A stretch of DNA of 64,000 bases from Agromyces sp. CF514. GTDB lineage: Bacteria; Actinomycetota; Actinomycetes; Actinomycetales; Microbacteriaceae. Shown here one piece after another: positions 8,763 to 10,223 of the stretch. The stretch lies in NCBI RefSeq assembly GCF_900113185.1, contig NZ_FOZD01000001.1:1364001-1428000 (forward strand). The letters run 5' to 3'. The position numbers and the translations under genes are program-made. Position 1 is the first letter of the stretch. Every line of letters starts with the position of its first letter. The notes under the pieces were generated by a model. That model had not been told where the DNA came from, ran no database searches, and saw only the letters and a list, made by a program, of their open reading frames with translations.

Positions 8763-8826
8763 CCGGCACCGGCGCGGCGACGGCGTGGGGCTGACGCGGT
8801 CGGACGCCCGGGGTATCGTGCCGGGC

Positions 8827-9423
8827 GTGCAGCTCATCTCGGACGACGACCTCGACGACCTCGAACGCGCGTTCATCGGGCGCGTGCGCGGTCGCGTGCT
8901 CGAGATCGGCGCGGGCGACGGCGAGAACTTCGGCGCGTTCCATCCCGACGTCGCATGGACCGGGCTCGAGCCCGACGCCGGGCGACGGGCCGAGCTCGCC
9001 ACGCGCGCGCGGGAGTGGCGGCACCCGTCGACGCCGCTCGATGCGACGGCCGAGCACATCCCGCTGGCGGATTCCTCGGTCGACGCGGTCGTCGGCACCT
9101 TCGTGCTCTGCTCGGTGGCGGATGTCGCGGCCGCCGTCGCCGAGGTGCGCCGCGTGCTCGTGCCGGGCGGCCGGGTCGTGTTCGTCGATCACGTCGCCGC
9201 GCCCCGAGGCACGCTGAAGCGGGCCGTGCAGAACGTCGCGACGCCGTTCGCGACGTGGTTCGACCACGGCTGCCACTGGAACCGCGATCCCGAGCCCGAG
9301 CTGGAGGCCGCGGGCTTCTCAGGCGCCGACGTGCGACGCCTGCGCGTGCGCTCGATGCCGTTCGGGCCGGTGCCCGTGCTGCTCTACGAGGGCGTCGCGC
9401 CCGGAGGCCCGCCGGTCGAGTAG
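8827..9423 (+). CDS. Class I SAM-dependent methyltransferase
   Basis: A 198-residue methyltransferase. Motif I is VLEIGAGDGENFG near residue 23, the acidic residue follows in GLEPD, and motif II/III reads SVDAVVGTFVLCSV with EVRRVLVPGGRVVFVDHV, which is the UbiE/PhcB-like pattern. The GTG at 8827 is chosen because TATCGT stands seven bases before it, indicating a leaderless message. The last residues PPVE and the stop lie inside a long inverted repeat shared with the convergent gene. Substrate unknown; cytoplasmic. Confidence 0.85.
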   Translation: MQLISDDDLDDLERAFIGRVRGRVLEIGAGDGENFGAFHPDVAWTGLEPDAGRRAELATRAREWRHPSTPLDATAEHIPLADSSVDAVVGTFVLCSVADVAAAVAEVRRVLVPGGRVVFVDHVAAPRGTLKRAVQNVATPFATWFDHGCHWNRDPEPELEAAGFSGADVRRLRVRSMPFGPVPVLLYEGVAPGGPPVE

Positions 9424-9492
9424 GCGCGCCGGCGCCGTATCGAGACCTGTGTTCGCGGCGCTGGTCTCGATACGCTGCGCTACTCGACCGGC
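9411..9492. repeat. Long interrupted inverted repeat spanning the 3' ends of two convergent genes
   Basis: GCCGGTCGAGTAG (9411-9423) pairs with CTACTCGACCGGC (9480-9492), and CGTATCGAGACC (9436-9447) pairs with GGTCTCGATACG (9463-9474), leaving a 15-base loop. The outer arms contain the last codons and stop codon of both flanking genes, so each protein ends in Pro-Val-Glu. It probably acts as a bidirectional terminator. The arm sequences look like a dispersed palindromic repeat family, though only this one full copy is in the window. Confidence 0.8.
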
Positions 9493-10223
9493 GATCGGTC
9501 GTCGAGCACCGTGCGGGCGAGCATCGTCGCACCCGCGACGGCCGCCGGCATCGTGAAGATCGCCCCGAGCGGCACCATGAAGCAGAGCTGCGTCGCCACG
9601 CCGAACCCGAGCAGGCGGGCCCGGTGCGAGCGCAGCAGCGCGCGACGCTCGTCGGCCGGGATCCCACGCGACTCGAACGCGCGCCCCGTGAGCTCCCACG
9701 CGAGCAGTCGCCCCGAGAGCACGACGCCCAGCACGGGCGCGAGCACCCCTCCGACGATGGGCACGAGTCCGCTCAGCGCGACCCCGAGCGAGACGAGCAG
9801 GCCGAGTCCGATGAAGGCGACGGCATCACGCGCCGAGCGCCAGAACCCGATGCCGTCGCCGGTCGGCTCCCCGCCGAGGTCCCGCTCGACGGCGAACCAG
9901 ATGCGCTCGTAGAACGGGTCGCCGACGAGCAGCGTGAGTCCCGTGAACGTGACGGCGGCGAGCACGATCGCACCGCCGAACGCGACCGCGCCGATGGCCG
10001 TGCGCGTGATCGTCGCCCAGGGCTCGACCCAGCCGGCTGCGAACGGCGTCGCCCACACGGTGATGGTCGGCAGGCTGATGCCGAGCGCGACGAGCCCGAT
10101 GAGCACGACGACCCAGACGATGGCCGCTGGCACGAGTCCGAGCAGCATCGCGCCCGGCTGCCGGCGCCAGAAGCCGAAGCCGCGCAGCAGCATGCGCACA
10201 CCGAGCAGGAACCGTTCGATCAT
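9480..10223 (-). CDS. EI24 domain-containing (CysZ-like) membrane protein
   Basis: A 247-residue membrane protein of the EI24/CysZ family. The diagnostic N terminus FLLGVRMLLRGFGFWRRQPGAMLLGLVPA is followed by several hydrophobic segments, and TLLVGDPFYERIWFAVERDLGG separates the second and third membrane pairs. The C-terminal GRLLAWELTGRAFESRG and LLGFGVATQLCFMVPLGAIFTMPAAVAGATMLAR are also family features. CysZ members transport sulfate; actinobacterial EI24 proteins are mostly uncharacterised. The -10-like TAGGCT lies eight bases before the ATG. Its last codons sit in the long inverted repeat. Confidence 0.85.
   Translation of the reverse strand: MIERFLLGVRMLLRGFGFWRRQPGAMLLGLVPAAIVWVVVLIGLVALGISLPTITVWATPFAAGWVEPWATITRTAIGAVAFGGAIVLAAVTFTGLTLLVGDPFYERIWFAVERDLGGEPTGDGIGFWRSARDAVAFIGLGLLVSLGVALSGLVPIVGGVLAPVLGVVLSGRLLAWELTGRAFESRGIPADERRALLRSHRARLLGFGVATQLCFMVPLGAIFTMPAAVAGATMLARTVLDDRSPVE

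Follow-up and report, generated by a model that had tools for sequence, protein, structure and literature searches.

Two genes that converge on the chromosome of Agromyces sp. CF514, one for a methyltransferase and one for an EI24/CysZ-like membrane protein, both end in Pro-Val-Glu followed by TAG. This junction raises the question of how two proteins read from opposite strands came to share their last codons, and whether the DNA between them is a structure of this site alone, a terminator, or a member of a repeat family. The locus lies in a stretch of 64,000 nucleotides that was analysed as a whole (the window), and positions are counted within it. The reading that we favour, with a probability of about 0.8, is that a REPIN-like head-to-head dimer settled at this convergent junction and that selection filters the copies of the repeat by the stop frame of their tails.

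The junction and its flanking genes

Positions 9410-9493 consist of two head-to-head units of a dispersed palindromic repeat, placed between the two convergent genes (Table 1). An inverted repeat had been described in an earlier note at 9411-9492; both of its nested repeats are exact, and the arms extend one base further on each side. The outer arms of 14 nt are 100% identical, as are the inner arms of 12 nt at 9436-9447 and 9463-9474. The fold of the junction beats all 200 dinucleotide shuffles on both strands (z -4.73 and -4.14). Each outer arm, when read inward, encodes Pro-Val-Glu-stop, and both flanking genes use it, as the note had stated for two proteins on opposite strands: the methyltransferase reading frame terminates in ...GGPPVE-TAG, and the EI24-like frame, with its stop codon at 9480-9482 of the minus strand, in ...DDRSPVE-TAG.

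Table 1. Features of the methyltransferase/EI24 junction (positions in the window; G000 is the genome of the window)
Feature	Positions	Strand	Basis
Methyltransferase gene, last codons PPVE-stop from the repeat	8785..9423	+	ORF, Pfam Methyltransf_11, orthologue ends
Tail (outer arm) of unit A, CGCCGGTCGAGTAG	9410..9423	+	P-V-E-stop for the methyltransferase; inverted-repeat search
Unit A of the repeat, 34 nt long, with middle GCGCCGGCGCGC	9414..9447	-	Exact two-arm pattern match, G000:C1:1373414-1373447
Spacer separating both heads, 15 nt	9448..9462		Deduced from unit coordinates
Unit B of the repeat, 27 nt long, with a short middle	9463..9489	+	Exact two-arm pattern match, G000:C1:1373463-1373489
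Tail (outer arm) of unit B, minus-strand CGCCGGTCGAGTAG	9480..9493	-	P-V-E-stop for the EI24-like protein
Gene for the EI24/CysZ-like membrane protein; the repeat gives its final codons, SPVE-stop	9480..10223	-	ORF frame, start from gene call, Pfam PF07264, orthologue ends

Orthologues of the methyltransferase were examined in 80 loci, with an identity above 45% required, and 24 loci hold the gene. The repeat lies at the junction in two of them, those of A. allii and A. salentinus, whose methyltransferases terminate in ...APSPVE and ...APSSVE and whose EI24-like proteins terminate in ...HPPVE and ...PPAVE. Junctions of this convergent gene order but free of a tail occur in seven Agromyces loci (L028, L029, L034, L040, L070, L077, L093), with stop-to-stop distances of -41 to 63 nt; their methyltransferase ends differ, for example ...LLFDGRAPSA, ...APGG and ...AP, as against ...APGGPPVE here. 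The C termini of orthologues that lack the element are thus not conserved in the repeat-bearing form, either at these seven junctions or at the aminotransferase-like locus described below, and this comparison of sequences supports the proposal of the note that the repeat redefined both protein ends. The junction would then be a clean case of a non-coding repeat that rewrites the C termini of two proteins simultaneously.

The closest named relatives of the EI24-like protein are those of A. allii (91% identity), A. terreus (88%) and A. salentinus (86%). In A. terreus (L025) the dimer is absent, the two genes overlap, both convergent frames end differently, and a 16-nt tail-like sequence with two changes lies just behind the EI24-like gene. 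This scar may be a collapsed site. A clean pre-insertion site was not found for this junction, as A. terreus, the nearest element-free relative, retains the scar; insertion here, rather than loss elsewhere, is probably the direction of change.

Anatomy and distribution of the repeat

Single arms lack specificity, and a two-arm pattern is needed to recognise the copies. With up to two mismatches, the 12-nt head occurs 8 times in the window against 10.3 expected, which is the chance level, and the 12-nt tail 25 times against 17.4, a slight excess. The 14-nt tail, with the same tolerance, has 396 matches in the genome and 393 in the control, so that lone mismatched tails were rejected as a count of copies. 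The two-arm unit pattern, by contrast with its reversed control (no match), gave 24 exact matches in the 4.3-Mb genome of four contigs. A slightly looser two-arm pattern was used for relatives, family and class. The repeat was found in 15 of the 40 genomes of the relatives sample, all 15 being among the 25 of the genus (own genome included). Of 150 Microbacteriaceae genomes 44 contain it, belonging to 30 of the 85 genera, with up to 652 matches per genome. The earlier note had preferred a dispersed repeat family to a chance stem, and the copy search that it suggested, in genome and family, bears this out: the element is far from single-copy.

In the class sample, 14 of 296 genomes carry the repeat, namely five of the own family, eight of a family labelled f42 and one of f32; the single f32 match does not exceed chance, as the reversed control is itself matched once in each of three genomes. 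The distribution is patchy. The f42 carriers are G246, G264, G282, G353, G372, G392, G431 and G439, while the other sampled families of the own order are without the repeat (0 of 15 genomes of the relatives sample). Phage and plasmid collections held no match for this junction copy.

Each unit consists of a head (GGTYTCGATACG) and a tail (CTACTCRACC) around a copy-specific middle. Read inward with its conserved edge, the tail is CGNY-GGTYGAGTAG, and the consensus over 114 tails is CGNYGGTCGAGTAG. The GTAG motif lies inside the unit, flanked towards the outside by the conserved CGNYGGTCGA and on its opposite side by TATCGAGACC. Base 4 of the head and the facing tail base covary (C..G 154, T..A 112, T..G 5, C..A 3, G..G 1, in deduplicated units of loci L025 and later). 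The middles also pair with themselves: among the 71 of 78 distinct middles of at least 6 nt that were retained (seven were dropped, as their lengths had fewer than three members), 0.744 of cells pair, against 0.573 when the halves are re-dealt (maximum 0.634 in 500 trials). Taken singly, short units fold only weakly as DNA and do not outdo their shuffles; therefore the evidence for pairing rests on covariation and on the dimer. The tail type with AACC occurs in 29 of the 150 family genomes, and among the matches listed a GGTC head was seen in two only.

The tails point outward in 8 of the 11 pairs of neighbouring units in the own genome. Arrays occur in other genomes, such as G016, where thirteen matched units of varying orientation are packed into about 0.7 kb between two convergent genes (L196, G016:C1:513900-517100).

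Known repeat systems and the search for a mobiliser

A short palindromic unit with many dispersed, mostly intergenic copies is a REP in the broad sense, and the element described here is one. The nearest descriptions are those of the GTAG-REPs (Di Nocera et al. 2013, PMC3733652), which, according to the main text of that paper, are palindromic units of 20-40 nt that form clusters and head-to-head heterodimers with outward tails, are found behind convergent genes and also inside genes, and often provide with their termini the TAG stop of flanking genes. As far as that description goes, the present element is similar in unit size, unequal inverted dimers, clusters, convergent placement and intragenic copies; head-to-head dimers are present, and its tails supply TAG stops (18, and 24 in a larger set). 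It differs in its actinobacterial hosts, in the RAYT transposase, which was not found, and in the position of GTAG. Strict membership of the GTAG-REPs fails because the motif is not at the very end of the unit, where it stands unpaired in that family. The REPINs of Bertels and Rainey (2011, PMC3116915) are described as two inverted REPs with a short spacer and many genome copies, and are tied to RAYT transposases (PMC3733652). Movement through a single-stranded hairpin intermediate is a further mark of REPINs. The junction element likewise has inverted REPs, close enough together to fold into a single long hairpin, and works like a REPIN; narrow membership fails because a RAYT (Y1 transposase) was not found in the host genome. 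The CGTC-tagged REPs, a family reported without a dedicated transposase (PMC3733652), are alike in this respect, and the tag here is GTAG, not CGTC. No paper on this actinobacterial repeat family was among the search results listed. The names Actinobacteria, Microbacterium, Clavibacter, Leifsonia and Agromyces are absent from the main text of PMC3733652, considered apart from its figures and supplements, and none of four names looked for occurs in PMC6006769.

The profile PF01797, which detected its positive controls in every case, found no RAYT in 60 Agromyces genomes at E<=0.001, none in 15 other hosts at E<=1, and none above the cut-off in 10 of 11 further genomes. Clear Y1 transposases were detected in the eleventh alone (G377), which itself has a single repeat match, a number at chance level. 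One match in G246 was below the cut-off, with an E of 0.46 and within a frame of 1512 codons. These results weigh against the view that the element is a classical REPIN whose mobilising RAYT has been lost or is too divergent for PF01797. The units, inverted dimers, clusters, location at 3' ends and supply of stops do match the GTAG-REPs, and the elements carrying the transposase can be missing through deletion (PMC3733652); we nevertheless regard this explanation as rather unlikely.

Other enzymes were sought with Pfam in 95 genes that flank or cover repeats in the own genome, G004, G019, G002 and G020, the genes of G213 and G016 lying outside this set. No transposase appears among the 25 of 201 Pfam families listed, save for weak matches of the IstB/TniB-type ATPases, with three members each, which three ClpC-like proteins scanned alone show too. 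The HNH proteins of the DUF222/13E12 type were considered as a candidate mobiliser. This candidate was rejected, as its presence shows no association with the repeat: the own genome has none at E<=0.001, the repeat-less G005 has 15, and G021, with 298-299 units, has one. The spread of the repeat presumably depends on an enzyme that recognises the hairpin, none having emerged from the searches described here, and abundant REP-like dimers that lack a detectable RAYT reopen the question of the mover. Tentatively, and with considerable doubt, the repeats might form a REPIN-like family, common to Microbacteriaceae and a second family of the class, that owes its spread to an enzyme other than a Y1 transposase and has tails adapted to carry stops near their outer edge. 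If so, the stop-bearing tails would make insertions at gene ends harmless, and the element would evolve compatibility with gene ends.

Repeats at gene ends and their frame of entry

The position of repeats relative to genes was examined in 100 clusters, comprising 15 from the own genome, three from EI24 and DUF222 loci, and 82 from 80 regions of G004, G019, G002, G020, G213 and G016. By our own gene calls, from a codon model trained on the window of one genome and then used on other genera, 83 clusters are intergenic, 10 intragenic and 7 unknown. Convergent junctions account for 43 of the 83 intergenic clusters, compared with 10 of 51 adjacent gene pairs in the window (P = 2e-4), and divergent junctions for 8 of 83, compared with 11 of 51 (P = 0.07). 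Tails that face a called 3' end within 100 nt supply the stop in 18 cases, lie behind a stop in 42 (21 of these at a distance of 5-17 nt) and are read through in one; for heads the corresponding numbers are 0, 35 and 1.

A strong stem between convergent genes, together with the enrichment of convergent junctions, would also be expected if the two genes simply shared an intrinsic terminator active in both directions, or a stem that arose by chance, and the earlier note had offered a captured terminator as its alternative. The junction does resemble intrinsic terminators in that a hairpin lies behind two convergent genes. Such terminators have a G+C-rich stem followed by a T-run, however, and neither a T-run nor a terminator-like site occurs on either strand of 9000-9900, so that termination is not evident. 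The element differs, moreover, in being dispersed, mobile-looking and a supplier of codons; the exact copies elsewhere in the genome, the intragenic clusters and the lack of an Rfam match for the element also speak against this explanation, which is very improbable. What fits best is a passive, selfish or neutral element that is tolerated at gene ends, and its hairpin in the RNA would be merely a passive 3' cap.

Seven gene ends of the xPVE type were found at five loci of the own genome: two at the methyltransferase/EI24 junction, both genes of L017, and one each at L011, L020 and L021. The L020 gene, called aminotransferase-like from our reading of its sequence, is present in 52 of 60 genomes. 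In relatives without the repeat it ends in ...RLADAR-TGA or similar, and where the repeat is present in ...RLADARSPVE-TAG; five of 30 fetched loci carry the repeat (L245 of the own genome, L253, L256, L262 and L273), all ending in ...VE-TAG. For the hydrolase of L017, a repeat-type end occurs in three of 30 fetched loci (L215 of the own genome, L216 and L217).

The frame in which genes enter the tails was scored for both tail types after 60 regions had been added. The GGTCGAGTAG tail has a stop in one frame only (TAG), and its compensated sister GGTTGAGTAG has an extra TGA and thus stops in two frames. Into 121 tails of the GGTCGAGTAG type run 29 coding frames, 24 of them in the stop frame; of the remaining five, four are intragenic and stay open across hundreds of codons, and one lengthens its protein by 33 residues. 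When the intragenic cases are excluded, 24 of 25 gene ends enter in the frame of TAG (P = 6e-11 for an expectation of one third; 19 of 20 in an earlier, smaller set). The 24 include orthologues of others (L027, one at L216, L253, L273), and the independent insertions are fewer than the copies because in five gene families several species share a repeat at one position. Into 103 tails of the GGTTGAGTAG type, a small sample, run 13 coding frames: seven use TGA and two TAG, one stops at the edge before the tail, one reads on for 67 codons, and two for more than 400. Frame 1, again with intragenic cases excluded, is used by 1 of 25 ends with GGTCGAGTAG and 7 of 11 with GGTTGAGTAG (P = 3e-4). The frame bias follows wherever the tail has a stop. 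Lengthened ends that were nevertheless kept are those of L168 (33 residues) and L294 (67).

The two tail versions, which are one compensated base pair and one stop codon apart, act as a built-in control for selection versus targeting. If the repeat inserted at or into native stop codons in a fixed phase, the bias would reflect the choice of target and not selection. The tails of the aminotransferase-like gene, which lie within a few codons of the native stop in five species, and the short distances of many tails from the stop before them are in keeping with this. A fixed phase, however, would not shift the preference of GGTTGAGTAG tails to the frame of the extra TGA, and the flanks show little sequence preference beyond the conserved CG. 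Phase-locked targeting is accordingly improbable, and the shift between tail types favours selection that filters insertions; purifying selection would be the maker of the frame bias. The supply of stops by the termini of GTAG-REPs has already been published (PMC3733652), and the frame result for two tail types is new.

Under the reading of a REPIN-like dimer filtered by selection, a head-to-head dimer of a dispersed REP-type repeat would have come to lie between the two convergent genes. Both outward tails begin with CGNYGGTCGAGTAG, and one of the three inward frames reads Val-Glu-stop. A copy landing in this frame at the 3' end of a gene would replace the native last codons and supply a new stop; copies in other frames at 3' ends would lengthen the protein and mostly be lost, and some copies persist in frame inside genes. 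Copies would thereby accumulate just behind gene stops, or exactly as gene stops, chiefly between convergent genes, and at the methyltransferase/EI24 junction both flanking genes use a tail. Repeats of this kind can occupy gene ends and leave the genes unbroken, and where a protein of these genomes is annotated with a C-terminal PVE, that ending can be derived from a repeat.

Several copies lie within coding frames. A tails-outward dimer is found in frame in the methionine synthase gene metH of the own genome, between the S-methyl_trans and Pterin_bind domains (L013:1450-1534, G000:C1:662336-662420). The ClpC-type genes of three other Agromyces genomes (L136, L159, L171) contain in-frame repeat units, and further intragenic copies are located in a LigD gene (L169) and a glycosyltransferase gene (L166).
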